A DNA stretch of 64,000 bases. It comes from Kalmusia sp. IMI 367209 (Eukaryota; Ascomycota; Dothideomycetes; Pleosporales; Didymosphaeriaceae). This document shows, in pieces, positions 15,557-63,784 of this stretch. A model generated the notes under the pieces. That model did no database searches, had not been told where the DNA came from, and saw only the letters and a program-made list of their open reading frames with translations. The translations under genes were made by a program, and so were the position numbers. The DNA is taken from contig JAPEUQ010000001.1 in the NCBI GenBank assembly GCA_027946365.1, positions 2,976,001 to 3,040,000 on the forward strand, read 5' to 3'. Numbering within the stretch: position 1 is the stretch's first letter; each line of letters begins with the position of its first letter.

Positions 15557-17158
15557 CTACACTATATCGAACCACTGATTAAATCTATTCTGTGGGTCTA
15601 CTTGTTTTTTGATAGTGCGTAGCCTGTCGAGACTATCTCCATACACGACCGAAAGATCTTCATCTCCATGCGCAAAGTTAACGTACCTGTTGCAAGTTAG
15701 CATCTCATCAGCACGTACTCCGCCATGGTCATAACTTACGAGGCGTTCCTGCCCAATCCATCATTACTTCGCCACAAATCTCTTGCCGCCTTCCCAAAAG
15801 CCACAGCCTCCGCATCATACGACGCATCATAATACCACGGAATGGCAACGGCATTGAAATTGACATTCCGATGTGGGAATGCAGTAGCTCCTGCGGGCAA
15901 AGACCGCGCCTTACCCAACGAATACGCTTCGACAAGGACAACGCTGTTTTCAGCTCCAGGCTTCTGTTGAAACACGACGTACTTGTCCCAGATCTGGCGC
16001 CATACAGACGGGATCATGGTCTGGAAGCCTACTGTGAATGACGGCTTGCGTCCGCCTCTGGTGCAGAACCCGTCGGCGCCGGTGTTCCACTCGGGGTAGG
16101 GCAATACAGTTGTTGTGTCTGCGACGGGCCCGATGGCGTAGAGGCTTGCGAAAGCGGCTTTACCTGAGGCTGCGTCTCCCTTGTAGAGGAAGGGTGTTAC
16201 GACTATGGCTGGTGTGTTCGTGGGTGGGCCGCCGGAGATGAAGTACATGAAAACGTTCATTTCAGGCTTGAGGACAAGGTTCTGGATGGCTTGTACGACT
16301 TGCTCCAGTTTGTCGGGGGTAAATATAAGTGCACCATTCCATGCAGATCTGGCGGCTGCTGTTGCTGGGGTCCTGTACCCAAGGTATGGTTAGCAAATGT
16401 TCGAAGCACGAGAACTATTGAATCGACTCACGCTTTCACTATGGCAGAAGTGACGATTCCAAAGTTTGGACCCGCGCCTCGAAGAGCCCAGAAGAGATCA
16501 GTGTTCGAAGCCGAAACGGTCTGGATCTTCCCATCTGCTGTCACGAGGCGAACAGAGATTATCTGATCGACACCCATTCCCGCTATTCCCATCAAGTTAC
16601 CGTAGCCACCACCCAAGTAGGCGCCTAGCGTTCCGACGCAATTGCAGTTCCCAGTGAGCACGAGAGCGCCAGCCGCATCCGCTGCTCGAATGGTAGAATT
16701 AATCGACACTCCACCTCCAATTGTAGCTTGCGTTTTGTCTGCGTTGAAGGTTACTTGATTGAGTCCAGCAAGATTTATTATCACGCCGTTGTTGTTCATT
16801 TTGAAGGTAGTCGACCACCCGTTGCCACCATTTTGAGCAAGGAATGGGATGCCGAAGGCATTACAAAATGCTACCTGTTTGCCTCCTCTGTAAGCTTATA
16901 TGCATAAAAAGCTAGGGTTGTTCACATTCGGCTTACCGTAGCTTGAACATCCAATTCACTTTTCGCATTGACAATGACAGCGGGGTCGGGAGCAGCATAC
17001 ACGCTCCAACGATTCGGATCATCGAAAGAAATAGTAGCACTTGTCGAGAGCTTCGATTGCAAGTCGGACTTAGCCTTTGCTTGAATCTGCGCCGGTGTCA
17101 ACGCAGCCTCGCAAAGACACGCGAGGAGCGCAACGAGCCAGAACCCGAAGACGGTCAT
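15557..17158 (-). CDS. Secreted FAD-linked oxidoreductase, berberine-bridge-enzyme type (4 exons)
   Basis: Exons 17158-16937, 16874-16432, 16372-15740 and 15686-15557 (introns of 62, 59 and 53 nt) give 475 aa with no frame break. MTVFGFWLVALLACLCEA at the N-terminus is a clear signal peptide. The PCMH-type FAD domain follows, with NGGNGWSTTF where BBE-like enzymes usually have a Gly-Gly-His flavin-linking motif, and GNCNCVGTLGAYLGGGYG, which retains the cysteine used for the second covalent link. The C-terminal BBE segment reads YVNFAHGDEDL...RLRTIKKQVDPQNRFNQW. The expected chemistry is oxidation of an alcohol, amine or C-H bond with O2. It is the leftmost gene of the RiPP-like cluster, and secretory routing would match a precursor that is processed in the secretory pathway. 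Confidence 0.9.
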
Positions 17159-17711
17159 TTGGAGTAGCAATGAAAATGATAAGAATGGTTGCTGTAACTG
17201 AGGCGGACATCAATGCCAGCTTTATACGAGGCGCGGCTTACTGGTGCTCATTCCCCGAAGCCACGTGGTGGGCGGCACGCGAGCAGGGATCAGAACATGG
17301 GCGCCGTGGCTGGCCACCAATAATTAGGAGTCTACGCGATTCGCAAAGAGTCGTACAGGGGTATTCTTTCACGCGTGAGAAACATGACAAAGAGGCTTCA
17401 GGGCGTCACCAGTCTAGGCGAATGTGCTTGATGGCACGGCCCAGACGTTCATCGGCCGGGTTTCGAATGTTACGTAGCTGGGAGCTATATTTATCGAGGA
17501 ATAGAGAAGCATGGCGCAAATAGGGGTCCCAGTTTGGCAATTGCGTGTTTCAACTACTTTCTGTTTGATTAGAGATGGTATATCTTGACCCAAACATGTT
17601 GCCCGTATGTTTAGGCTGCTGAATGCTTGCGTGCAAAAGAGCGTGTGCTGTAATTGTATTCCTTACCTCGGTGTCGAGGTCTGTAGCAGTCTAAATTGAT
17701 ACACATAATAC
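17159..17711. other. Intergenic within the cluster
   Basis: Promoter of the FAD oxidoreductase and 3' region of the receptor-like gene. No further gene or repeat was identified. Confidence 0.5.
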
Positions 17712-19095
17712 CTATACTACATGATGCACACTCCTCGTCTCCACACTGGTGTGCACAGATATACCACTTTCAGGGCCTGCGATATTGCTATTATGCCTGG
17801 CCATCTCATTTTCACCATCAGACCCTGCATCTGTCGCTCGAATCGAGGTATCAACCCCGAGTACTGGAGCATCTGCGTCATCAATCTCCGTCCATTCCTC
17901 AGTGCCGAGTTTCTTGGACCTTTTGCTTCTTAATTCGTAGTCCATATTGCCCAAGCTCGAAGTGGGTTTCTTTGGACGTATATGCGTCCAGATTGGGCGG
18001 AGAGTCGGGAGGCAAGACGAAATAACTGCAAGCGAGAGCTCGATATTGGTCCAGAAGAAAACTGGAGATGTGTAGTCTAGTAGCTAATTAGCGTGTGATT
18101 CGGATTTGGTGTAAATATCCTTACAAGTTTCGTCATTGAAGTGGAGAGCAAACTCGTCGGCGATTTTGGTCAAAACCACCAATCTCGTGATACTGATTGC
18201 GATAACTCTGAAGAGAATGAATATATCAGCACATATTCGTTTGCTAGAAAGAAATTAGGGACATACGAAGAGCCGAGTAAGAACATTCCCAAAACACCTA
18301 GCTTTTGATGCCAAGGCAGCTGGAGTTTCAAGACCATTGGAATAGGCATTACTAGGATGCCGACATCGATGATCAGATCTGTGTACACAACCGATAGCCA
18401 CATGTCTATGACATGGGTCATACATTTATTGCCGTAGAACGGCTCAATAAGAGCCGTCACTGGATAGCAGGTGAACAGGTTCGCAAAGGCGTATGCGATG
18501 GTCCAGCCAACAACAAAAAACATCATCACCCACACCACCCATCGGAATGAGCGCGTGTGGAAGATGGTCTTGTAGAAGATAAGGAACGAAGCCTTGATGA
18601 GGCCAAGACCGACAACACTGAGGATGTTGACAGCGAATTTTGTCTTCACGCTTGTCAGACTACTCCCCGATATACATGGCTACAACATTAGGATTGACAG
18701 CTTACACGCTCATAGACGAGGAATTCTGGATCATCAAGAATGGGCATGCCCTTCTCGTCGACATTTTGATGCTGGCCCAGGCTCCCGTGGATGGCGGCTT
18801 TGTGGCTCAATTAGCAAAAATGGGCGTTGAGGAGCGGATGACTAGCTTACCCACAACCTGGAGAATGGAGCAAGAAAGAGCAACAACCTGCTCAACGTTA
18901 GTCTCTATTTGCAAACTGAGTCTCTAAAGTGCCCACCAAAGCTGAGAAGCACAGATAGTCTTCCAGTGCCAACTTTCTCGATCCAAGGTGCTTCGCCCAC
19001 ACGCGTAATCCGACGAAAGCCGTGGGGATGATCATGAAGACAACACCGAGTCCTATCATCATCCCCTGGCTGTAGTCCTGCTTCATAGCAACCAT
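17712..19095 (-). CDS. PTH11-type/rhodopsin-domain integral membrane protein (about 6 exons)
   Basis: A plausible model begins at the ATG at 19095 (MVAMKQDYSQGMMIGLG, first TM helix). It continues through GLRVWAKHLGSRKLALEDYL, a segment GSLGQHQNVDEKGMPILDDPEF, and helices in TKFAVNILSVVGLGLIKASF, WVVWVMMFFVVGWTIAYAF, VVYTDLIIDVGILVMPIPMV and GVLGMFLLGSS. It ends with VIAISITRLVVL and a cytoplasmic tail starting LRPIWTHIRPKK. This is the order of the fungal seven-helix PTH11-like family, several members of which are G-protein-coupled sensors. Introns lie near 18240, 18090, 18690, 18840 and 18910. Exons 2 and 3 join out of frame by one base at a GGG donor (about 18850), so a missing base or an unusual splice is likely. 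It sits inside the RiPP-like cluster and could sense the product or the host; that is inference. Confidence 0.75.
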
Positions 19096-19960
19096 GATTG
19101 CGACTAATAGAAAAAGTAACGTTGAGATAGAAAGTGGGCCTCGTCATGCAATGGTTCTGTTCCTGAAGGGATATACGGAATGGCGTCCATTTCTCTCGTG
19201 AGGGCTTGCGCCTCGCCTCGGGCCTTGGCTTCAAGCTGAGGAGACCGAGAATATGGTGCTATGCCAGGAGCGTACTATTGTTCATCTTGGGATTCCCGGC
19301 TTCAGACAGTGCCCGTCCGGAGAAGATGATGTGAACATTGGGCGCACCTGAAGCCATCGTTCGGGAATCCTGCATGAAAGAGTACAGCTGCCTAACGTGG
19401 CATGGCGAATCATGCGTGTATGACTGCGCTTGGGAGCAGGCTTAGCAATCTATTCGTATTGTGGTTTTCGCCCAGCGCCACCACATTCACGGTAAGCTGA
19501 TTTAAGGCCGGACTTCACAGCGTGGCGTTCTCAAACAGTCTTGGAGGCAAACAAGTGTGAGATTCGTCTGTAATGGGATGAGATTGTACTAGGGATGGAA
19601 TATGCGACATCCTAGAGACGCCACGGTCGGTTTCCAGCGAGCCGTCGAAATCTACACTTCTTCGCAAACTCTCGATCCTGCTCGATCCTGATAGCAGCCG
19701 AGACATGCATGGTAAGGTGGCCGACATCGGTAGGATGGAATCTCTAGGGCTGAAAAGCCTAGACTACACGGCAGGACAGGGGGGTGATGGAAAAAATCAG
19801 GGAATGATGATTTTATTGGGCACTCGCTTATCATTCACGACCCGATGGCAGCCCCGCTTCCCGCCAATTAGCTCCCGCTAGCGCCCGCTTACCTCGACTT
19901 CACTCTGGGGGATCGCACAGGCTGCATTTTGTTGCTTGCCCCAATCCCGCGCCACCCATC
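19096..19960. other. Intergenic within the cluster
   Basis: Between the receptor-like gene and the 3' end of the precursor gene, which lie on the same strand. Only short frames lacking conserved features. Confidence 0.5.
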
Positions 19961-20380
19961 TCAACCCCGGGCCGACCAGCTGTTGCGAACCAGCTCGTCC
20001 GCGTCTGCCTCCGCAGTCCTCGCCGACCATGAGTTGCGCACCTCGTCGTCGGCGTCCTTGGGAGTGAGTTGCCCACGGGCAGACCACGAATTGCGGACCT
20101 CGTCGTCAGCGTCCTTGACCAGCTGCGCGCGAGCAGACCACGAGTTTCGTACGTTGTCGTCTGCATCCTTCGTAAGTTGCGCGCGGGCAGACCACGAATT
20201 GCGGACCTGATCGTCCGCATCAGCCTCGCGTACGCTCACAGCGCTGTTGGTCACTGATATTCAACTTAGCCGAGCAAAACTAACATGTCGTGCCTAGAAT
20301 TTAACTGGCTGTTACATACCTCCGTTCAGTGGAAGAGCTAGAGCCGCACCGGCGAGCAGGGAGATAAATACGAAGCGCAT
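19961..20380 (-). CDS. Secreted tandem-repeat RiPP precursor (dikaritin-like), 2 exons
   Basis: Exon 1 (20380-20320) encodes a 16-20 residue signal peptide beginning MRFVFISLLAGAALA. A 66-nt intron (20254-20319, GTATGT donor, CTAAG branch) leads to exon 2 (20253-19961); total 117 aa. Exon 2 holds five consecutive units of 15-19 residues, each built as acidic spacer (DADDx) + VRNSWSAR + variable linker (AQLTK, AQLVK, GQLTPK, TAEA, then Gly-stop). VRNSWSAR is identical in all five while its codons differ; the first core Ser uses TCG, TCA and AGC. This indicates selection on the peptide. Signal peptide, repeats and two neighbouring UstY-family genes match fungal RiPP precursors such as UstA. Oddities: no Kex2 dibasic site, only single Arg/Lys between units, and no Tyr in the unit. 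A non-RiPP secreted repeat protein is the alternative. Confidence 0.85.
19964..20226 (-). repeat. Five tandem copies of the VRNSWSAR unit
   Basis: Coding repeat of 45-57 nt per copy inside the precursor gene. DNA identity between copies is high outside the core as well, suggesting fairly recent amplification, yet the core codons carry only synonymous changes. Confidence 0.9.
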
Positions 20381-21265
20381 TGTTGAGGCTGTTGGAGTGG
20401 ATTGATCTCGAAGAAATGTGTTTGATACCTTGGGCTCGAGCCGATGGATATGGGGTCTGACAGCATGGCCCTCGGTTGGGCTATATGCTTTCGACTGCCT
20501 AGGACGAAGGGCGTCAACATGCCACGGACATGCCTTGTCGGTCATGTGCCAGCTGCCGTGTCCGCTGCAGTGCACTTTTTCACGTTCCGTCGTCATTGTA
20601 CGTCCATAGCCTTCGACACTATCGTCCATACATTTCAACAAGGTCTTCCAATGCGGACACCGGCGATCTGGAGCATTATCCGGTAGAAGGGTCTGGCGCG
20701 GCTTACTGACATTAGCGATGTATACACCATACACTAGAATAGGTAATCATCTTATGATAATCGGTAGAGGTCATAGCGTTTACCTCCTTTCTGTAAGCTG
20801 ACTTTACTCTCGTATATTGCCCCCAAGAAATCCCGCCTATGGAGCTCACACTTTCCTAGCACATGACATATCAATGCATCATGATGGGGTGCTCGTACGG
20901 CTGGAGGCCTTGACGGGCATTGAAAAGGGAAGGTTTTGTTCCGGGATGCCCGTTGTTCGCCCTGCATGTGCGGACACTCCATGTGCAATGCATATCATCG
21001 AGTCAATCGGTGTGAGCCTTGGCATACCGCAGCGGATAATGCAGCTGGACCATAGACAGCGTGCTCAACATTGTGCAACGCGATGTCACTGTGTATCCTT
21101 AGCTTGGGTCTAGGCTGCTGGTGGCCAAGGCAAAGGGCGATCAATCGGGCGTTGGAGATGTGTAGATTGGCCTAGCTTACAGTGAATCTTCACTCCGAAT
21201 GCAGCACCGTGAGAAGCCACTGTCTGCAGTGGCCCATTGTGAATCAGTGTTTCTGGTGCATCATC
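20381..21265. other. Divergent promoter region between precursor and first UstY gene
   Basis: 885 bp between the precursor start codon (minus) and the UstYa-like start codon (plus). A shared bidirectional control region is likely. I found no transcription-factor site I would defend and no further gene. Confidence 0.5.
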
Positions 21266-22054
21266 ATGAAGCTCGAAAGCAGCAAAGACCATGAAGAGAG
21301 CGAGACTCTTCTCCCTGTATCCCACCAGCCCCAAAGCTCTGTGAAGGCAAACAGGAATGTCGAAGCCTATATTCAATGGACTCTCGCGCTTTGCTCGATT
21401 GCTGTAGCGGTCACTGTTGGCTACTTGATCGGGCGCTTCCAAAGCCCAGCTACTATCCAGAACTACGGCTTACCAGGTAATTCCTTTTTTCAACACAGAA
21501 TTACTTTGTCGTTGACAGTATCAGCACCCCCCGGTACCGTGCATCTAAAATGGCAGCACAACCTCACCTTCACACAGAAGCCAGATGCCGCCTCTGAATC
21601 CGCCTGGAGCTCCATCATCCCCGTAGGACGCGGCTTCATCACGCACCCCCATCTCGCGCCCCAGGCCTCCAACATAGCAGTCTTCCACCAACTTCACTGT
21701 CTCGTGAGCCCGTTTCCATCTCTCAAACCCACATTGCATTCACTAACGACCCACGAGCATGCTATCTACGTAGCCTACTACGACGCGCTGGCCAGCGCAC
21801 CCATGGAAATGGCAGACGTCCCTGACTTCGACAACTCGACGGGGACACGCACCGCGCCGTTTCACATACGGCATTGCTTCGATTATATCAGGCAGACGCT
21901 CATGTGTCACGCTGATACGAATCTGGAGGTGCTGGACCCGGCGAAGCACACGACGAATGGGTGGAATCAGACCAAGATTTGCAGAGATTATAGTGTGGTT
22001 AAGGATTTTGCGGAGCGTTATGCTAATTCGTCTGATACGGGCATTGTTACTTGA
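21266..22054 (+). CDS. UstYa-like DUF3328 oxidase (3 exons)
   Basis: Start at ATG 21266 (MKLESSKDHEES). Exons 21266-21476, 21519-21703 and 21758-22054, with introns of 42 and 54 nt that are multiples of three and leave the frame open, giving 230 aa. One membrane helix (about residues 38-58, WTLALCSIAVAVTVGYLIG) follows a short cytosolic tail. Both family hallmarks are present: HQLHC, restored next to HAIYVAYY when intron 2 is removed, and HIRHCFDYIRQTLMCHADT. UstYa-type proteins catalyse oxidative cyclisation of ribosomal peptides in ustiloxin, asperipin and phomopsin pathways. It is divergent from the precursor and convergent with the second UstY gene (180-bp gap). Expected location: ER/Golgi membrane with the catalytic part lumenal. 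Confidence 0.9.
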   Translation: MKLESSKDHEESETLLPVSHQPQSSVKANRNVEAYIQWTLALCSIAVAVTVGYLIGRFQSPATIQNYGLPGNSFFQHRITLSLTVSAPPGTVHLKWQHNLTFTQKPDAASESAWSSIIPVGRGFITHPHLAPQASNIAVFHQLHCLVSPFPSLKPTLHSLTTHEHAIYVAYYDALASAPMEMADVPDFDNSTGTRTAPFHIRHCFDYIRQTLMCHADTNLEVLDPAKHTTNGWNQTKICRDYSVVKDFAERYANSSDTGIVT

Positions 22055-22234
22055 GGTGGTATAATTGAATCGCTCTTTGATGCATTGTTAGCCTTAAGGG
22101 TGCCGGAATCTATCTGCTAGCATCCTCCTAACAATTCATAAAATATGTGGCATTTATATTCTCGATTCAATTTTCATAATTCGTGTTGTATAAGCTTTGA
22201 ATCGTTATCATACTGTTTCAATGTGTTCTCCAAC

Positions 22235-23229
22235 CTATGGCCCAGCAAGAATTGATCGGTCACTCATGTCAACCATGCGCTTCCTCGCCCAGGTATCTAA
22301 AGCGGTCCAGTCTACACACTCATTGTCCGTGTAGACTCTTGAAGTAGGATACCCGTCCGTGTCGCGCCAGTAAAAGGTCCCGAGCGTGACGTCTCCCCTG
22401 CACATGACCGACTCACGCCAGTACTCTAGGCAATGATCTTCCCGCTGTTAGCTATTGCTCTACGAGTATTCGTGGCTAATGAAAGCGGTCGAGATGAAGC
22501 TTACCGATATGTTTGTCTTCAGTGATCTGTTCTTCCGCCGTGAGATTGTGATAGTAATAATCATAAAAGATGTACCTGCGGATACGTTTCTTCTCCATAT
22601 CAGCACATGCAGAAAGCAGGAGATGCAGCAAAGCACACATTACAGTGAAGCTCGTGGTAGGCTGCCATCTCTGCGATGTAGCCCGAGCCGTCTTTCAGCG
22701 CGATGGAAGTATCACCCTCCGAGAAGCGCGCGAACTCCTCAGCCGTGACTTTGATCGTCATCGCTGCGCAATAGTGAGTAGCAAATTCGCGCAAGAGACG
22801 TGCGGTTCACGTACGCTCAAGAAGATCATGCCATGCCTTGTCCAGCTCTGGGCGCGGCGCACCCGTGAAGGGATTGGGCCCATCGATGTCTCTCCAAAGC
22901 CGCCTTTTCTCATACCGAAGGGCCTCTGTGGCAGGTGCTAAGCAATCGATTAATTCTGTACTACTTCTAACTAAGACGTGGGAACTCTTACAATATGTTA
23001 ACTGCGGCCGCACGCAGCTTTCCTGTGCGGGAATATTCTTATACGAGGAAGTTGTCCACAAGCTCAAGAACAAGATGTTGGAAATAACGAGCAGCGAGTA
23101 CACAACAATGTGGCGTTTTCGCTGGCTCGCAGTTGGTAGCTTGTTCACTCCGTATTCGGCAAAACGAGCAGGCTCCTCATGATCCGCCTCGTCGGATCCG
23201 CGCAGCTGCGAATATTTCGTGGTGTCCAT
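22235..23229 (-). CDS. UstYb-like DUF3328 oxidase (5 exons)
   Basis: Exons 23229-22992, 22937-22815, 22763-22639, 22589-22505 and 22437-22235 (introns of 54, 51, 49 and 67 nt) give 257 aa with consistent phases throughout. The N-terminal 46 residues are cytosolic, followed by a membrane helix (HIVVYSLLVISNILFLSLW). Exon 3 ends with YHELHC, exon 4 supplies KRIRRYIFYDYYYHNLTAEEQ, and exons 4/5 meet at KHI-D-HCLEYWRESVMCRGD. The two HxxHC motifs are therefore both created by splicing. The C-terminus DNECVDWTALDTWARKRMV is typical of the family. Intron 3 uses a less common GTGTGC donor, and its acceptor choice (AAG versus GAG) changes one residue. It pairs with the UstYa-like gene; the known systems usually need two UstY proteins for cyclisation. 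Confidence 0.9.
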
Positions 23230-23689
23230 TGCAACACACAATGCTTTGATGGAATCTCCTCCTCAGAACCGTTCTTACAGTTGACCTGATAGCATGGCCA
23301 GCTCTGTAAGCTAAGCACGAGAGAGCCAGTCGTGCTTGCATGCATGCATGCACGACCCAAAGTACCGAAACGGAAACCGGGCTGCTTTGTCGGCCGAAGC
23401 TTACGGGGCACTGCAGGCATTAGTGGCGACCCGCGAGAGTACTGCATGATGTCCGGTGAAAGCTCAGTTACGCGCCGTAAGTTGTACTACCCGATGCGGT
23501 CACCTCGCGTATGGGGGTGGCACGGTAAGTGCCGTTGGGTTGTGTGGCTTACTGCTGCACAAAGAGAGCCAGACTTCATCCAGGAACTCCTTCCTCGTCG
23601 CCCTTGCTAGCAGTCGCCATAGACAAGCGGTGTCGATACTTTTCCAGAAGATCTGAACCAATTACACTTTTCGAACGCCCACGTCGAGA
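23230..23689. other. Divergent promoter between UstYb-like gene and SDR gene
   Basis: 460 bp with no conserved open frame. A CATGCATGCATGCATG-like tract (TGCATGCATGCATGCAC, about 23337-23353) is a small alternating purine-pyrimidine palindrome. Confidence 0.5.
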
Positions 23690-24650
23690 ATGGTTACCTA
23701 TCTCATCACCGGAGCGAGTAGAGGTATTCATCCTGCCCTGTCACTGTCCACTCTCTTTCAGACCGCCATCTAATTACCGGTGCCGCAGGCCTAGGACGAG
23801 GCTTGACGGAAGCTCTGCTTTCCCAGCCGTCGCATACTGTCGTGGCGGCCGTGCGCGATCCCCAGAGCTCCACTAGTCTCTCACTAGCCGATCTGCCGCG
23901 TGCGGCGGATACACAGCTCATCACTGTGAAGATCGATTCGACATCGGACACCGATGCAGCCGAAGCAGCTCATGTGCTTGCCACGCAGCATGGAATCAAG
24001 AGTCTTGATGTCGTCGTTGCGAATGCTGGGTTCGGAGAGGTGTGGGGCGACTTGACGACTGTGAAGCCGAAGGAAGTTGGTGAGTTGGTGGATGTCAATG
24101 GAATAGGTGAGTGCAATATGTTTCGTTGGCATATGTTTGTCGCAGCAAGGTCTTGATGCGACGACGGTTCGTTGTATTGATTGTACTGATATTTCTACTA
24201 GGACCACTGCGCCTCTTCCAAGGGGTTCGAAAACTTCTCGAGAGCAGCCCAGCAGGGGGAAATTTGTCCTCATCGGCACGCCTATTGCGAGCATCAGCGC
24301 CATGGAGAAGGCACCGTGGCCGATGTTTGCGTATGGCGCCAGCAAGACGGTTGCGCATTACCTGACTAGGAAGATCCACGTGGAGAGCCCAAGCCTGACT
24401 GCTTTTGTGGTCGATCCTGGGTGAGACATATACATAATTGTTAGCTTGAGTGCAATGGCTGACTAGGTCTAGATTCATGCAAACGGACATGGGCAACAAT
24501 GGCGCGAGGCACTTTGGGTATGAGCAAGCATTCGTTCCAGTAGCCGCTTCGGTCAAGTTCATTCTCGGACAAGTCGAAGAAGCAACCAGAGAGAAGGTAG
24601 GAGGAAAGTTCGTTTCAATCGATGAGGAACGGAAGGAAATCGAGTGGTGA
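23690..24650 (+). CDS. Short-chain dehydrogenase/reductase (4 exons, one-base break at 24254-24258)
   Basis: Exons 23690-23723, 23789-24106, 24202-24420 and 24473-24650 (introns of 65, 95 and 52 nt). Rossmann motif TGASRG-LGRG is split by intron 1. NAG (DVVVANAGFGEV), the catalytic serine region (GTPIASIS) and YGASK (Tyr and Lys) follow in order, then a C-terminal FMQTDMGNNGA typical of the C-factor/NorA-like NAD(P)H-dependent reductases. The frame changes within a run of five G at 24254-24258, between LLESSPAG and KFVLIGTP. Adding one base makes the exon total 750 nt (249 aa), so a missing G is likely. In the cluster it would reduce a carbonyl or oxidise an alcohol on the modified peptide or an accessory group. 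Confidence 0.8.
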
Positions 24651-24746
24651 GGCTACGAGATAACAGTGATAGCCCCTTAGCTTCGAGAAGTCTGTGCCTA
24701 AGTTCTACAAGTCTCTCAAGTGGCATGCCACAAATGACACTTCTCA

Positions 24747-25836
24747 TTACCCATTCTTCCGTGCGAGGACCAATACTGCAGGCCACGTCATTGGAACTTT
24801 AACATTGCTCCCACCAAGCGCTTTTTCCAACTCCCCAAAATACCCCTTCATAATTTCATCCGCACTGTTCATGTGATCCGGTTTCGGAAATATAGAAAGA
24901 ACAAATTTCCGCAACATTTCGATGTCCCAATCAACTTTCCAGAAATTAGGGTCCTGCTCTTCAATCATGAGTTCGGTCTCGCCTACAGCGGTCTTCGGCT
25001 CCAGTTCAAAATCACCAGCATCGGGTCCGAAGAAGGCTAGGCGAGCATTTGAATTATTCCATTTTTGTCGCCGCACGTCGCTCCACTGCTCGGTCGAAAA
25101 AGGAATGTAGTCCAACCAACTCGCCATGCCCTCAGCGGCGTGCTTCCAGGCTGCACGAGCCTGCGGGTCGCCCCCCGTCACGATTGGCTTGAATGCGTGA
25201 TCAAGCGCGGCGTACAGAGCAGCCTGCCCCTTCGCTGTCTGGACTGGGTCCAGAAAAATTGGCGGTCCATAGAACCATATCGCCAGGGTGCCTCCAGGCC
25301 GTAGAAGCGTGGACATGCAGTGTAGCGCTTTCTCAGTATCCAGCAGAGGAAATGTCAAGGCACACGTTATCATATTGAATGAGGAGGGTGTATGGTAGTT
25401 GATCAGATCTTCTGCTCGAGAGACAGTCCAAGACAAGCGGTTGGGATCGATGTTTCGATATCTCTTTTGGGCGAAGCCGAGACTGGTGGTGTCGTTGTCA
25501 CTCGCAGTGACGACTGTAAATCGCTCAGTCAATGGACCAAAGAGCGGATCCAGCACCGGTGCCCACATCAAGAGCGGCATCGAATTTGTTGTTGTTGGCT
25601 TCGTGGTAAGCGAAGATCGGATTGAATATAGTTGCATCGTATGGCGGTCTCGTCGCAATGTAATCATTCCAGTATGATGCTTCGACATTCTGAAGTTTCC
25701 AGACACTTTCAGTCGAATTACTATTGAATCTCCGTGAGGAGTATCCCAAAGTTTTCTGAGCGCGCGTGTTGAATATGGTTTTGCGTGTGAACCCAAATCG
25801 TCGCACAGTCGTAGAGACAGCGGAGTGGTTCGCCAT
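24747..25836 (-). CDS. SAM-dependent methyltransferase, Crg1/Tmt1-like (one-base break near 25540)
   Basis: The N-terminal frame (from ATG 25836) carries YWNDYIATRPPYD, FDAALDVGTGAGS (SAM motif I), then hits a stop. The next frame continues FGPLTERFTVVTASDND (acidic loop, motif II), LIN...FNMITCALTFPLLD, LLRPGGTLAIWFYGPP (motif III), and a C-terminal half ending in VPMTWPAVLVLARKNG. Removing one base near an AAA run at 25539-25541 joins them; the total is then 1089 nt (362 aa). The architecture matches the fungal trans-aconitate/Crg1-type small-molecule methyltransferases. N- or O-methylation of the RiPP is a reasonable role, by analogy with N-methylation in ustiloxins. The N-terminal 35 residues are basic and may be an extension rather than part of the protein; a start near 25690 is possible. 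Convergent with the SDR gene (96-bp gap). Confidence 0.8.
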
Positions 25837-26146
25837 CCTGGATTGGAGGTGAGGAACGGCGCACCACCAGAGTGGGAAGTAATATATCGGGCTCCGGCGC
25901 ATTGTCGTCTTTACCATGCTTACAGTGTCCCAACACCTGAACCCCGCACACATCAAAAGCGATTGGCGGAGCCTGCTGCAGGCGCTTTGTGACACCTGCT
26001 AAGATCTCCAACACCACGGCCTCACCCGGCGCTCGGGCGCTCAGACGTTCAGATGCTTACAAAATTGACTACAATGAAATATAAGCGCGCCCACGCATGC
26101 TTTTCTAGCGCTGAGCACCTAATCTCAAAACACTTTGAAAATTGAC

Positions 26147-27718
26147 ATGAATATGGACTCGACTACTGCAGACTACATCGTTGTCGGAGGCGGTCTTACC
26201 GGCTGTGTCATCGCTTCGCGCCTCGCGCAGGCCGCCTCCTCTCCCTCAGTTACCCTCATTGAAGCTGGACCAGATCCGACCGGCGAAGCTGGAACCGACA
26301 CAATCCTTGCCGGTCTCTCACTCATGGGCGGGAAGCTGGACTACTCGTACCAGAGTGAACCTGCTGCCCAGACTGCTGCCCGAGTGCACACCTTACCGGC
26401 AGGAAAGATGCTAGGCGGGGGCAGCATGTTGAATTTTTTGGAGGTTGGCTGGCAGCAGATGCGAAAGACTACGATGCTTGGGGAGGAAAAGTTGGTGACG
26501 AGCGATGGGGCTACAAGGGATTGAATCCGTGGTTGGAAAAGGCGGAGAAGTTGTTCAATGTCTCTGCTGTTTCTGACGATCCAGAGAGGAAGTATCCGCT
26601 CAGAAGCGCCGTGGAAGACGCATGGAAGGGATTAGGTGTGGGACGCAGTAGCGCAAACGGTTCCATGACCGGATTATCAGAGATGAAGGAGAATCTACGT
26701 GCCGATGGAGTTCGCCAGCCTTCTTATCAGGCATATCCTCTCGAAGGTGTTAACGTCCTCACCAACACGGCCGTAGAGCGGGTGACGTTCACCGCAAACA
26801 AGGCAGATGGCGTTCAACTTCACGGCGGCCGCACAATTCGTGCAAACAAAGAAGTCATTCTCTGCGCTGGTGCGTACCGCACACCACATCTACTAATGCT
26901 GTCTGGAATCGGTCCGCAAGCCGTCCTATCAGCCAACAATATCCCCGTCATCCATTCCTCGGAGGAGGTGGGTCAGAATCTTTTTCGATCATTTCGCCGT
27001 GTACATGGCCTTCAAGCTGCGCGACCCATCCCAGAACCTAGCACTAGGAAGCTCTGGCTGGACCAACCCGTCTCTCTTCAAAGGCCTACCTATCGACTGG
27101 GCAGTGAGCGAGCGCGTACCGCAAGAAGTGCTTAACAAACATAAAGACTCAGACTCTGAATTCGAAGGGCGGAACCTCTGGGAAGTGCTCACAGTCTACG
27201 TACCGCCTGGTATCCCTGGCATTCCCTTTGATGGATCGCACATCGCGACATCGACGATGCTTCTCCTCCCGACATCCCGGGGAACTGTATCCCTCAGTTC
27301 GCCTTCGCCCAAGGACCCTCCCATAATCCAACCCAACTACCTCTCTACTTCCTTTGACCGCCATGTGCTCGGATACGCCGCTCGACGCACGCTGGAGATG
27401 GTGCTCGAATCAGAGAGTATGGGACGATACGTCGAGAGCGAGACGCCGCCTTCAGGACCTGGCCTAGATGGTTTGGTCCCGCTGGTTCCTGATGTAAGCG
27501 ATGAGATTTTACAAGAACGTATTGAGCGATCAGGTCTGCAGCACCATCATTCTGGGGGCACGGCTGCGATGGGAACGGTGGTCGATGCGGAAGGTAAGGT
27601 TATTGGTGTGAGTGGGCTGCGTGTTGCTGATGCGAGTGTGCTTCCGCTTCCTCTGGGGGGACATCCGCAGGCTACGTTGTACGCGATGGCAGAACAGCTG
27701 GCAAGCTTTATCTTATGA
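26147..27718 (+). CDS. GMC-family FAD oxidoreductase (two compensating one-base breaks)
   Basis: Start at ATG 26147. The ADP-binding motif VVGGGLTGCVIASRLA is near the N-terminus, followed by GKMLGGGSMLNF, the GMC signature GAYRTPHLLMLSGIGP, and a C-terminal catalytic region LQHHHSGGTAAMG...GLRVADASVLP...GHPQATLYAMAE holding the two active-site positions. The frame changes at a run of six T (26434-26439, one base short) and back at a run of five T (26981-26985, one base extra). The two cancel, giving 1572 nt (523 aa), a normal GMC length. Enzymes of this class oxidise alcohols or form double bonds with FAD. It ends the cluster on the right. The divergent spacing to the methyltransferase (310 bp) suggests a shared promoter, with a TATA-like ATATAAG near 26078. 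Confidence 0.85.
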
Positions 27719-38822: not shown

Positions 38823-41097
38823 TCATACAAGTAGGATTTCTTGCTCACGTTTTGTGATGTCATCCATCTTCCATAAAGCCTCTGCGACGCGAGCCACGGC
38901 TACCCGCTCACAAAGACCGCGACTTCGGTCTGTCCAGCGAACAACAAGACAAATATAGGAGTGGGCACCTGTGCATGGCTTGCTTGAGAAGTAATACGCA
39001 TCGTGCGAGTATACCCACGACAAGAGAAGAATGAAAGATACAGCCGGATCAGAAACATCACTCATAGTGGCCCCAAATACAATCCCTCCTTTTTTTGAAC
39101 CGACATCCTCTTTTGCAGACGCGCTTCCCCAAGAATAATCTGTAGCTATTGCGAAATTGTGCTCCTTGTGCAGCATTTCAAGTAGAGGACAATAAGGAGT
39201 CTTGGTCATGTTAGGTTGCTTATGATCATTGCGATCAAGCACCTGAAAATGGAACTCAGCCGCATCGACTACAATGGCAGTCATCTTTACAGCGATCGTG
39301 GGTCCAGCTGGCCAAATTTTGACTGTTGCGAGCGGGGTATACCGCATACCTGAGGTATTCGCCCATGATATCAGATCTAGAAGTTGGGATGCAACTCAGT
39401 AACCATGGAATAGAGGATACAGGACTCAGAGACTAGACTGTAGAACTCCTCGAAACACATACCGGATATATTTGGCCAAACGACTCTTGAGCCTTCCCAA
39501 CCGATCCAAGTCCAGCTAGGAACATCATAGGGCACCCCTGCTGCGTGTAATCGTCGACCTACCTGGTCTTCGCACACCCAGCCCAGCGCAAGCACCAAAT
39601 CGTCTTCAGGCATGCCCAAGCGCATGTTACCGATCTTTTTCGCCTCTAGCATTGATGATATCCCTAAAAACGCACGAAGCATGTCGGCTTTGTAAGTTAA
39701 CTGTCGACCCGTGTAGAGCCAGACCAGGTGACAATACCACGGGAAACTACCAATGTTGCCGTTCATCGGTTTTATGTAAGTTTTCAGTGGGTTTCCGGCA
39801 TTCTCTAGAGAATTCAAAGCTTGAGCCAAGAACGTAGCCGAACCATTTGCATCGGTCCGAGAGTCAGACGGACATGACAAGACAGCCCCAAAGTCCGAAA
39901 GAATCAAACATCGCTTTGATAGCATAAACTCTTGAAATGTCCAAGCCCGCGATGCATACTTCGTTGTCCAAAACCAGAAGTGCAATCTAGGCGGGCTCAA
40001 GACCAGTCGAATCCCATCTGACTCGTCCTAGATTTCGAGTCACATGTCAGTAAAGAGAGGTAAGATAAGTAAAGTGTATCACCGAGAAGATACAAAATCA
40101 TCGTAATAACTCGTAAGGGGTACCATACCGAGACTTTTGGTGGTCGGCTATCAGGCCGAACTCCTGGTAGTGAATCTTGCGCACTGCTTGTGCTAGCAGC
40201 GACTATAGTTAGCAGAGCTCTTGAGTATATGATATCCATTTGGTCGATATAGAATGCGGTATTCTCTGCGTCATTTTGAATTATGCAGAGGGCATCTACC
40301 CAAAGATAACGCTCTCCTAATTGCTTCACTAACTCGATTGCGTCTTGAATTGTATTAGGAAGAGTGATCGTATCGAGACTTTGAGGTTCTCGAAGCCGTT
40401 TGTAGTTTTCTTTGGTCAAGTGGAAGAATTCACACTGTCCCCAAACGTAGCTCAGGGCTACATATGGCCCAGAGGAATCCCTTTTGACGATTCGATTTTC
40501 GACAATGTCGATGAGTAGGAGCTTGATTGCGCTCTGCACATCACAGCGACGGCCGCACCCCATATCGAGGCTATGGGATGTCGCATCTTTGGCCTCGCAG
40601 CATTCAGAAATAAAGTCTCGGATCCAATGAGGGTTGATCAGTGAGCCATCTCCATTACGATACTCGAATCTGACTCTTGACGCTTCTGGCGAAAACCAAT
40701 TCGGCAAGCGGTCAACAGGATCGCTCTTGGACTTATTGGTATTGACTAGGCATGAGAAAAGCTGCTGGCCGTTGCAAATGACAGAGACCCAATCCTGAGA
40801 GGATGACATTGTTTCAAGCGCACACTGTACCTGAGTTGGGCAAAGATTTGGCTGTCCGAAAATACGATTCCCCTGGATGTAAGAGGCGAGGAAACGACAT
40901 AGCGGACAATCTGCACGCTTCAACAATTGCTTGAGCGATCCAAACTGTGTGATGCGGCGAGATGATGCGTTTCCAAAAAGGCCGCCGACCGGGAATGGGG
41001 AGAAATGCCTCCGACAGTAGTGGCATGGGCTTCTCAGGGAGCTTGTTGGCCTTTCACTCTTTCTTAACTCGAGCCATTCTCTGAAAGTTCCCTTCAT
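38823..41097 (-). CDS. HET-domain (heterokaryon incompatibility) protein (3 exons)
   Basis: Exons 41097-40129, 40027-39421 and 39376-38823 (introns of 101 and 44 nt) give 709 aa, with all phases consistent. The N-terminal 80 residues carry Cys pairs (CHYCRRHF, CPLCRFLA). The HET domain begins at about residue 211: YVALSYVWGQ, LPNTIQDAIELVKQLGERYLWVDALCI, QMDIIYSRALLTIVAAS, and SRAWTFQEFMLSKRCLIL after intron 1. Exon 2 ends in a segment typical of long HET proteins (DVPSWTWIGWEG), and exon 3 encodes an uncharacterised C-terminal domain. HET proteins trigger cell death after fusion of unlike strains. No NACHT or repeat domain is attached. It stands alone, without a recognisable partner gene beside it. 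Confidence 0.88.

Positions 41098-60138: not shown

Positions 60139-60198
<60 letters not shown>
60139..60198 (+). repeat. (CA)30 microsatellite
   Basis: Uninterrupted CA dinucleotide tract of 60 bp starting 16 bp after the GDS1-like stop codon, so it lies in its 3'UTR. Likely polymorphic. Confidence 0.97.
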
Positions 60199-60202
<4 letters not shown>

Positions 60203-61899
60203 GGGATATTTGCAACAAACGAAACTGAATGACGAATCTCCTTTGGCTCGCGGTCTACCTTTCCGATTTACATTTCTAGTATATCCCTCTCTACTTTTAT
60301 TAATGGCGTACTATCCTAGACGGAGTTTCGATTCGCCGCTCGCGCAGCGCCAAAGGTTCGGGGGAATGTCGGGTTATCAGTCAAATCGGGGTTTCAGCGA
60401 TTTTTGGTGTCTAGGTGATGGGATTGGTACTTTGTCTGTACGATAGTGTGTTGATGGTATTGCTAAGGCACTGGCTGTTACTTGGCGTGACTGAGGTCGA
60501 CATTCGGATCAGGGTCGAAGGGGGTGGAGCAAGCACAATTGCCTTGCGAGGACCACCCAGATCAGATAAAAGTGCTTAAATTGGAAAAACAATTTATATC
60601 TTCTAGTGCTCGCATCAACCTTTGTGACGACTGTGTTGACCTGTCTTTGATGATGGAGAGTGCTGCAATATCGAGTGAGGCTGCCAGGATCGCGCTCGAT
60701 TGCTTGTGCATGTATGCAGCTACCTGCAGGCCATCAGGCGGTGAACATATGCAGAACAACTAGACACCGCAACTCGAAGCCAATCACAGCATGTCCGCAT
60801 AACTAATCGCCATCTCTCCAATTAACCCTGTTCGTGCTAGTGTACGGCCAGCAATACTCCGTTACAACGCCCGCCCGCCCAAGGTACACCTTCGTTGCTA
60901 GTCAATGCGCCCCACACCGCGTTTTTGCGTCCCTACACCGGCCAGAATGTGGTCTTTGAGCTGGCACTCACCGAAGTCCCAAATGCGACCGTCTTTTGAA
61001 GGGGCATCCTGGGAATCATGGACAGATGTCGGCTTGGCGTGCGAAGGGCGAGATTTCCCAAAACCGTCCACTACGATGAGCTGGCAAACGTGCTCAGTGC
61101 GTCACCAGATCAACACCAACCAGGCACGTATTAGGACGTTGTGTGAACGAATATCGCCCCCCCCCCCTTCAAGTCCCAGGGGGTGGGGAGAAGTAAAGAA
61201 ATCGCAGAGTGAGGCTCTCTCTCTCTCTCGCTCTCCAGCCACCGGTTCTCAGGATTCCCAGCCACCGAACGCGAAGCGAGAGAGATCGTCGCGCTGGCTG
61301 GCCGCTCGACTGACTGACTGACGCCCAACTCATGTGAGATTTCGTGCAGCGCGCGCAACACTCTCCTTTTCGCCCTTTTTTTCTTCGACGCGCGCGTTGC
61401 AATCGACGCTTCCGAGCGACCAGTTACCTGACCGGGAGGCGCTTTTTAGGGCGTGTGTGTTCTGTAAGCTGTTCGCGCTGCAGGGTGTGTGTGCCGCGAA
61501 GTGCGACGGTCACGCTACCGAGGCTGGGGAAAAAAAGAGCGGGAAAGTGAGAAAGGGTTGGGAAAGTCGACGAAGAGCAAAGTCTCTGTGAGAGTCTGGA
61601 AAAGAGCGAGGATTATTCTGGATCGGGTTCGGCTGAGGGACGACTGCAGGGCGCCGGCGCTCCCGCTGTTGATGCATGTCGGGCTGCTTCCGCACGTGGT
61701 CGTCTAGTTGTGCAACCAGGCTATCGTATCGACTGGCCTTTTCACCGCAGCCTTCATTCGACCCCTGTTGGATAGTGCAAATTAACTCGGACTGAACACC
61801 TTTACAACCTCCGCGGTGGATTCCTCGGAGAGCAGCGACTCGGGGTACTTCCCCTCACCCGAATCAGAGAAGCAGAAGAGAAGGGGAAACAGAGACTCG
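60199..61899. other. Intergenic region with C-run and CT repeats, upstream of the DUF2235 gene
   Basis: 1.7 kb without a supported gene. It contains a run of about 11 C at 61158-61168, a CT-rich tract at about 61215-61240 and purine-rich stretches before the DUF2235 gene. It may hold an upstream exon of that gene. Confidence 0.5.
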
Positions 61900-63784
61900 A
61901 TGTCCATAGCGCATTCAAGAGCAAGGAGCAGGAGCAGAGCGCCCAGCAATGCGAGGGGCTCTGCGCCCATCGTGGTCCCCGTTCCGCCGAAGCCTCCGCT
62001 GGAAATCGTACTGCCTGCTTCGCCTCGTCCGCGGAGCAGGGGCCCGGTCTTCGTCGATGCGCCTGGTCTCAGCGGAGGACGGGGCATGTTCAAGAGGTTG
62101 ATCGTTGCCTGTGACGGGACGTGGTTGAACTCTGATAATGGCATGATCAATGGGAAATTGTCTGTTCCTAGTAACGTGACACGGATATCAAGAGCTATCA
62201 AGGCTGTCAGTCAAGATGGGATCCCGCAGATCGTCAACTATCATTTTGGCGTGGGTTCGCAGGGTGGCCGCCTGAATCGCATCATAAGCGGTACTACAGG
62301 CGAAGGGCTCGGCGATAACGTGCGAGAGGCGTACTCCTTCCTTGCAAATAATTACCATCCTGGCGACGAGATCTTCCTGCTCGGTTTTTCACGCGGGGCC
62401 TTCACCGCGCGAAGCATCGGCGGGTTGATTGGCGAGATTGGATTGCTCACCAAGAAGGGCCTGAACAGTCTCCCAGAAGTCTTTGAAGATGTCCAGCACC
62501 GGCGAGATCCCAAATACGTCCCCAAGAATCCCAACATACCCTTCACAAACAAGCCTAGCGCGAGTAGTCCGCGGTACGCGGATGAACTTGAAAGAAGAGG
62601 TCTCACAAGGCTGGACATCAAGATCAAGGTCATCGCCGTGTGGGACACGGTCGGTAGTCTCGGCACACCGCGCTTCGGCTTTCTCCAGAAACTTGGCCTG
62701 CAAAGCGCTGAATCAAAAGAGATGGCCTTTTACGATACCAAGCTGTCCAACTGCATCGAGAATGCGTTCCAAGCGCTGGCCCTCGACGAGAAGCGCTCTG
62801 CATTCAGTCCCGCGGTGTGGGAAAAACCTGAAGGCAACAGGACCACGCTGCGGCAGGTCTGGTTCCCCGGCGTGCATTCAAATACAGGCGGTGGGTACGA
62901 CGACCAACAACTCGCAAACATCACGCTTGCGTGGATGATGAGCCAGCTCGCGCCCTTCCTCGACATGCGCGAGGAATACCTCTTCGAGCAAGAAGAAGAA
63001 AACGAGCGCTACTACAAGCGCGAAGGCGAAAGCCCGAGACCATGGGGCTTCGGCGAAATATACAACTCCACAACCGGCATCTACGCCCTAGGCGGCAGCT
63101 CAGTAAGTACTCCCTTTGCACCTCCCCCACCAGACAAGTCCTTAACAGACCGCAAAGCTCCGCACCCCAGGCCTCTACCACGCCGTCGACCCCTTCACCT
63201 GCCGCCCGACAGAGCGCCCCCTCCGCCAAACAAACGAATACATCCACGCATCGGCGCGGACGCGCTTCCGCCTCGGCGGGCCCGGCGTCTCCGACAAGGG
63301 CTTCTACGAGTGCGCGGCGCTCGCGCACAACTACAAGCTCGTCGTCGACTACGGGCCCGACGGCGCGCGCGCCGCCGACCCAGACGTCCACTGGAAACTC
63401 AAGTACCGCGACCCCAACGCCGTCCGGATCCTGCCCGAGGCCCCGCTGTGGGGCATCGAGAAGGAGCTCGCGCGCCGCGACCCGGAGACGTACGACTACG
63501 TCAAGAGGCCGCCTGCCACGGGGGGCAATCGGCGGTCCAAGAAGGCGCGGCCCATGAGCGCGGATATGGGCGCTGCTGCTGCTGCGTTGAGGTCCGCGGG
63601 TGGGCGGAGGAGCTTTGCCGAGGGCGAGGGCAGGGGGACGAGGAGTTCGGCGGTGCTGGAGAAGAGGGATAGGGCGAAGGGCCGGAGTAGGAGTCGGGGG
63701 CCTGCGGGGAGGAGTCGGAGTGGAGCTTCGATGAAAGGAGTACGGTTATTAGGAGAGCATGCCGCATCGGAGGGAAAAGGATAG
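61900..63784 (+). CDS. DUF2235 alpha/beta-hydrolase (Tle1-like phospholipase fold), 2 exons
   Basis: Exons 61900-63102 and 63149-63784 (46-nt intron, GTAAGT donor) give 612 aa from the first in-frame ATG. The frame is open back to 61786 without an ATG, so an upstream exon is possible. After an Arg/Ser/Pro-rich N-terminus the DUF2235 domain starts at about residue 62: RLIVACDGTW, then the nucleophile elbow LLGFSRGAFTARS, VIAVWDTVGSLGTP (acid region) and VWFPGVHSNTGGGYDD (catalytic His). The family relates to bacterial type VI lipase effectors and is widespread as single genes in fungi, with unknown substrate. Exon 2 continues with GLYHAVDPFT and YKLVVDYGPDG, then a low-complexity Arg/Gly/Ser tail of about 90 residues. 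Confidence 0.88.

Follow-up and report, generated by a model that had tools for sequence, protein, structure and literature searches.

The 64-kb window analysed here (64,000 nucleotides) originates from the genome of Kalmusia sp. IMI 367209 (Pleosporales, Didymosphaeriaceae), a culture-collection endophyte with a genome of 42.78 Mb in 30 contigs and a BUSCO score of 98.18% (PMC10027605), and contains a small gene for a repeat protein with two UstY-family genes at its side. These three core genes, which probably constitute a dikaritin-type module for a ribosomally synthesised and post-translationally modified peptide (RiPP), are located as follows:

19961-20380, minus strand: predicted RiPP precursor gene, exons 20380-20320 and 20253-19961, separated by a 66-nt GT..AG intron, 117 aa
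21266-22054, plus strand: UstYa gene, exons 21266-21476, 21525-21703 and 21758-22054, 228 aa, PF11807 match at 6.6e-20, motifs HQLHC and HIRHC
22235-23229, minus strand: UstYb gene, exons 23229-22992, 22937-22815, 22763-22639, 22589-22505 and 22437-22235, 257 aa, PF11807 match at 2.7e-54, motifs HELHC and HIDHC

The repeat precursor is thus encoded close to a UstY gene, with the UstYa gene being divergent from it at a distance of approximately 0.9 kb, and the UstYb gene is convergent with UstYa. The precursor itself consists of a hydrophobic N-terminus (MRFVFISLLAGAALALPLNG), which by eye resembles a signal peptide and has similar counterparts at the start of the named homologues described below, followed by five near-identical units of the form DAD(D/E)xVRNSWSAR, and a 54-nt array within the gene was detected by Tandem Repeats Finder. 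Between the five copies the codon differs at 11 of the 13 positions and the residue at 2 of the 13 (pS 0.731 versus pN 0.108), and because the codons differ while the residues barely do, the repeats are held by strong purifying selection. A chance or low-complexity origin of the repeats was ruled out by the same codon analysis. No Pfam family matched the precursor, a scan of the 64-kb window for 10-residue units repeated at least three times returned only the precursor and its antisense frame, and this is the only precursor-type locus found in the Kalmusia genome.

Database searches, restricted to proteins between 0.55 and 1.75 times as long as the query, identified 23 homologues of the precursor at E ≤ 1, 20 of these at E < 0.01. 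A named homologue with 67% identity is from Bimuria novae-zelandiae, and further homologues are found in Xylaria, Nemania, Hypoxylon, Truncatella, Hymenoscyphus albidus, Aspergillus tubingensis and Penicillium chermesinum, genera which we take to span the Dothideo-, Sordario-, Leotio- and Eurotiomycetes. Repeats were counted in the window precursor and all 23 matches (24 proteins, the three weak ones included), once using the acidic motif D-x-D-[DE] alone, which makes the count independent of the core sequence (64 sites), and once using a pattern that itself demands the Trp and is hence circular for that residue (67 repeats). In the acidic-motif count a Trp is present at +9 in all 64 repeats and is always preceded by Ser or Thr (64/64), with Asn at +7 in 63/64, Val at +5 in 61/64 (Ile in two, Thr in one) and Arg, His or Lys at +6 in 59/64. 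None of the 67 repeats of the other count contains a Tyr, and Trp is the sole Phe/Tyr/Trp residue in 66 of these, the remaining repeat holding a Phe. Two of the homologues (P0018 and P0023, the latter matching at E 0.9) have variant units of the form V-(S/N)-N-T-W-D-R-(R/K), and from its sequence this branch would possibly yield a sister product with Asp after the Trp.

KR links successive units in A. tubingensis, P. chermesinum and H. albidus, and the corresponding place has SAR in Kalmusia, Bimuria, Xylaria and Nemania. Dibasic pairs are absent from the precursors of Bimuria, three Xylaria, Nemania and Truncatella, while there are two each in those of P. chermesinum, A. tubingensis and H. 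albidus, and one each in those of Hypoxylon texense and H. argillaceum, located away from the repeat joints. In the three residues that follow W-S (or W-D), a single basic residue is present in 43 of the 67 repeats, a dibasic pair in 17 and the end of the protein in six, with one repeat having none of these. The last unit in A. tubingensis and P. chermesinum stops directly after SWSQ or SWSE, which suggests that these protein ends may represent the C-terminal edge of the core.

UstY enzymes have recently been defined as a family of binuclear-copper C-H oxidases. The spliced model of Kalmusia UstYb is 100% identical over 257 aa to the deposited protein N0V90_001023 (P0024 in our searches), and Kalmusia UstYa and the precursor were absent among the proteins found within the length range searched; both may have been left unannotated. 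UstYa and UstYb matches were found on equal-sized contigs in 14 further named species, and with Kalmusia included all 15 UstYb and 13 of the 15 UstYa proteins have both HxxHC motifs, the UstYa proteins of Lojkania and A. recurvatus each being without one motif, perhaps due to faulty gene models. In the structure model of UstYb (mean pLDDT 84.6) residues 34-64 form a long N-terminal helix, with HELHC (157-161) positioned on helix 154-169 and HIDHC (189-193) on helix 180-204, and the model of a UstYa homologue from Periconia (pLDDT 77.0) has its motifs at 122-126 on helix 119-140 and at 163-167 on helix 161-177. As modelled, the UstY proteins share the paired-helix layout of the HxxHC motifs with CctR, the DUF3328 hydroxylase of cyclochlorotine, a copper enzyme with an N-terminal membrane helix in which the HxxHC(x)nHxxHC motifs on paired helices bind two coppers, although the substrate of CctR is a non-ribosomal peptide, unlike the repeat precursor found here (PMC12435403). 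NCBIfam gave no match for either UstY protein or for the Penicillium precursor, and a scan of viral contigs with UstYb brought up no DNA-level relative.

Whether the precursor and UstY genes are linked in other species was assessed by two signs, equal-sized contigs and neighbouring locus tags, rather than from the DNA itself, with the UstY match lists cut at E 1e-10. By these signs, a precursor and a UstY match are on an equal-sized contig or have consecutive tags in 7 of the 11 NCBI-named species. The tags of P. chermesinum are consecutive for the precursor (N7468_000926), UstYa (_000927) and UstYb (_000928), with no gene between, and those of A. tubingensis are consecutive for the precursor (_005564) and UstYa (_005565). 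All three core genes share a contig size in X. grammica (334,320) and X. longipes (335,770), the precursor and UstYa do so in X. cubensis (130,339) and Bimuria (559,953), and in N. serpens (380,738) it is the precursor and UstYb, whose protein numbers neighbour each other. One more precursor homologue (P0003, contig size 12,475) has the same contig size as the UstYa match P0126. The first-pass annotation had described a five-repeat precursor and two UstY-family proteins with paired HxxHC motifs, which the splice model, the five units and the tandem array on the one hand, and the PF11807 matches with two motifs each on the other, bear out, and its reading of this combination as a dikaritin-like RiPP locus is supported by the linkage signs in the seven species. 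Synteny in related fungi, which it had set beforehand as a test, was thus apparent in 7/11 named species and not in the other 4/11, and its view of a precursor with two UstY proteins as the minimal signature of such clusters was slightly off, as asperipin-2a has one UstY (PMC7329392).

From these data we consider it probable that the precursor, UstYa and UstYb together form a UstY-type (dikaritin) RiPP module of three genes, but several observations weigh against this. Four of the 11 named species are without a sign of precursor-UstY linkage: Hypoxylon texense had no UstY match in the lists at the E 1e-10 cut, the UstYb matches for Truncatella angustata and Hymenoscyphus albidus come solely from another assembly or species, and H. 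argillaceum has both UstY proteins with neighbouring numbers on a contig differing in size from that of the precursor. UstYb was also not found in Bimuria, despite the equal-sized contigs of its precursor and UstYa, and some of the common contigs have the size of chromosomes, as in P. chermesinum (5.3 Mb) and for the UstY pair in Podospora (11.2 Mb), so that there the tags alone are informative. The distances of UstYa and UstYb do correlate (r 0.62, reached by 0 of 9999 permutations, 15 pairs from the 14 species and Kalmusia), yet this may simply mirror the relationships between the species. The PDB gave no sequence match at E ≤ 10, and a fold search with the UstYb model returned 0 matches at E ≤ 0.001. 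Finally, the Kalmusia precursor has no KR, KK, RK or RR pair, and hence the usual Kex2 processing signal is missing.

In the dikaritins, the DUF3328/UstYa protein is the class-defining enzyme (PMC12048977), UstY proteins are indispensable for cyclising the ustiloxin, asperipin-2a and phomopsin cores (PMC7329392), and Kex2 cleaves the precursors in the Golgi (PMC9233826). The Kalmusia locus is similar to those of ustiloxin, phomopsin and asperipin-2a in its multi-repeat precursor beside UstY genes with paired HxxHC motifs, and to the ustiloxin cluster in having two UstY genes (PMC7329392), but differs from them in that the repeats are without Tyr, the usual crosslinking target and present in most known cores, and the precursor is without a dibasic Kex2 site. 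It is further set apart from the ustiloxin/phomopsin sub-type by the lack of Tyr in all 67 repeats and of a tyrosinase domain among the 30 window sequences scanned, a subset of the window's open reading frames. The dikaritin cores YAIG, YVIPID and FYYTGY are unlike that of Kalmusia, and the core of victorin is different as well. The known rings join an aromatic to an aliphatic side chain, as in Tyr-Ile of ustiloxin and phomopsin, and victorin from Cochliobolus victoriae, which also has a multi-core precursor, has such a bond without Tyr (Phe-Leu), while in the epichloecyclins (GigA) from Epichloe, with an Ile-Tyr bond in a nonapeptide, the aliphatic residue precedes the aromatic one within the crosslinked core (PMC9233826), which is the order proposed below for Val and Trp.

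Tandem-repeat precursors are also known from the Kex2-processed repeat proteins (KEPs) of Umemura 2020, which are secreted and in 22% of cases have DUF3328 neighbours; these were collected by searching for units of 8 aa or more that occur three or more times between KR/KK/RK/RR sites (PMC7329392). The Kalmusia precursor has none of these sites, and because that survey required them, a precursor of this type would have been excluded by construction, whereas the KR-bearing Aspergillus and Penicillium members may already be in Umemura's tables. The main text of PMC7329392 contains none of the strings NSW, SWS and VRN, and NSW is likewise missing in that of PMC12048977, and among titles and abstract openings of the dikaritin, UstY and RiPP literature none describes this core, with supplements and most subscription papers being outside this coverage.

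We propose that the precursor would enter the secretory pathway, where its units would be excised at basic residues, these being monobasic in Kalmusia (after SAR, and between K and DADD) and a KR pair in the relatives from Aspergillus, Penicillium and Hymenoscyphus. The acidic segment DADD could serve as a spacer or recognition element and is perhaps trimmed, after which the core V-R-N-S-W-S-A would be closed oxidatively by the two UstY enzymes, which are predicted to be membrane-anchored and of the copper type. To our knowledge the known UstY RiPP rings use Tyr or Phe. The Trp core makes a new Trp-containing cyclic peptide a plausible product, and if Trp takes this role in a conserved module, a new crosslink would be indicated. 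Such a module would further mean that filters for dibasic sites omit some fungal RiPPs, and that one or more of these peptides have been retained in several ascomycete classes, making their role open to testing in a number of laboratory fungi. Among the aliphatic and aromatic residues, Val and Trp alone hardly vary, and three residues separate them; we therefore tentatively predict, by analogy with the known rings, that the side chains of Val and Trp are bonded to form a V-x-N-S-W ring; that members of the UstY family also hydroxylate and halogenate (PMC12435403) speaks against this particular bond. The computed m/z values for the linear form and the form with one bond (-2H) are 819.411 and 817.395 for VRNSWSA, 748.374 and 746.358 for VRNSWS, and 1364.571 and 1362.556 for DADDEVRNSWSA. 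A more far-reaching version, which taken as a whole we regard as somewhat unlikely, is that the conserved V-x-N-[ST]-W peptide is crosslinked at its Trp by a dedicated UstY pair and has a common fungal role, e.g. as a signal, rather than being a lineage-specific toxin, with one branch having shifted from dibasic to monobasic cutting and hence being passed over by surveys that insist on dibasic sites.

Five other genes are located next to the three core genes:

15557-17158, minus strand: BBE-type FAD-linked oxidoreductase, 475 aa, 4 exons, FAD_binding_4 at 9.7e-23 and BBE at 1.5e-7, N-terminus signal-peptide-like by eye
17715-19095, minus strand: fungal rhodopsin / PTH11-like seven-transmembrane protein, multi-exon with uncertain borders of exons 2-3, PF20684 at 3.5e-29 on 18679-18173
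23690-24650, plus strand: short-chain dehydrogenase/reductase (SDR), adh_short at 2.8e-11 on the first piece (exons 23690-23723 and 23789-24106)
24747-25998, minus strand: class I S-adenosylmethionine-dependent methyltransferase, Methyltransf_11 positions 13-95 of 95 in frame 25910-24750
26147-27718, plus strand: GMC oxidoreductase, GMC_oxred_N in two frames, GMC_oxred_C at 6.6e-29 in the last piece

The first-pass annotation had named all five of these neighbours, and their identities are confirmed by Pfam matches, but it made no mention of a frame break in the GMC gene, nor of the lack of dibasic pairs in the precursor. In the GMC gene, positions 2-35 of GMC_oxred_N (6e-5) end near 26437 and positions 38-214 (8e-20) begin near 26446 in another frame, and because these points are too close for an intron, this first frame change is a break. 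Ahead of GMC_oxred_C, near 26.99 kb, the frame changes a second time, through what may be either a break or an intron, and a formal test for bridging GT..AG pairs proved too permissive, with 33 solutions for the first and 29 for the second change. The second half of the SDR gene appears by eye to contain a frame change, with the later pieces giving no Pfam SDR match, while the first motif of the methyltransferase appears by eye to be in frame 25998-25528, in which there is no Pfam match; both genes are perhaps also broken. The assembly was made using Raven on 27x fast-basecalled Nanopore reads, followed by Illumina/Pilon polishing (PMC10027605), and the frame changes in the GMC, SDR and methyltransferase genes may represent leftover read errors or local decay. 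The precursor, both UstY genes and the BBE gene are intact, with the NCBIfam matches of the BBE protein all being weak and far below cut-off. Beyond the block there is a thiamine pyrophosphate enzyme on the left (8.1-9.8 kb) and a tubulin-tyrosine ligase, MCM10 and an RNase H2 subunit on the right (29.4-35.1 kb). The BBE, SDR, methyltransferase and GMC proteins may be lineage-specific tailoring enzymes or bystanders.

The eight genes span 12.2 kb, oxidoreductases and methyltransferases commonly act in tailoring, and the domains outside the block are of the housekeeping type on both sides, all of which would fit one co-regulated cluster for a heavily tailored peptide, with cyclisation by the UstY proteins, methylation, and redox steps by the BBE, GMC and SDR enzymes. 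We consider such a cluster possible but doubtful: only the precursor and the UstY genes were seen travelling together across species, the core trio of P. chermesinum is consecutive with nothing between, and the GMC gene is frame-broken, as perhaps are the SDR and methyltransferase genes. The clear break in GMC and the suspected ones in the other two genes could also be taken as signs of a decaying or silent cluster, with a readable core and a pathway that is dead in this strain, and five flanking Pfam-matched genes are indeed single long open frames, although these were chosen for their length, which biases the comparison. That the pathway is dead we judge unlikely, with the precursor, UstY and BBE genes being intact and the repeats under purifying selection; residual indels are also possible from a fast-basecalled Nanopore start at 27x (PMC10027605), and the second GMC frame change is formally bridged by the 29 GT..AG pairs.

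Two other explanations are to be weighed against the three-gene RiPP module. The units might be released as linear signalling or antimicrobial peptides, with the UstY proteins acting on something else; this would agree with 78% of KEPs being without a DUF3328 neighbour and some KEPs being pheromones (PMC7329392), and a unit so strikingly conserved in distant fungi would suit a common signal, but the precursor is repeatedly linked to the same UstY types in these distant fungi, and we therefore think linear release very unlikely. It is hardly credible that the gene encodes a repetitive secreted structural protein with UstY neighbours by chance. While chance proximity is not negligible in a genome where 54 loci carry a total of 72 UstY match groups, the cross-species linkage and the KR-separated units of the Aspergillus and Penicillium relatives argue against such a protein, as does the lack of a second repeat protein of this kind within the 64 kb.

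The 72 match groups, which indicate a very large UstY family, were obtained from the 102 exon-level PF11807 matches in the Kalmusia genome, with the grouping taking 72 of the 102 rows and leaving out 30 that were mostly weaker or overlapping. A repeat scan of these UstY loci, covering L001-L046 and the window (47 records, 307,712 bases), revealed eight copies of KR-separated AVAVGPIIEEAGEGYES repeats beside a UstY gene at L039. Other repeat precursors beside UstY genes have the units APTVDEGFSKIIY (L016), AATYAPLVYTGGLK (L017), TEFAPWYRATNILPASDDK (L031), ARTPIGQFISIWYGEDGDD (L036; also L036/L008), SSPVPPLWDGGVEG (L030/L037), VDATYTSINWKK (L013/L041) and HHKGRKNNKREVEIEE (L043), and judging by these repeats the Kalmusia genome seems rich in UstY-RiPP loci. 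Elsewhere in the window there is an open reading frame for a HET-domain (heterokaryon incompatibility) protein at 40000-41097 on the minus strand, a perfect (CA)30 microsatellite at 60139-60198, and a 618-aa open reading frame at 61816-63669 on the plus strand that strongly matches the Tle1-like phospholipase catalytic domain (PF09994, 5e-86).

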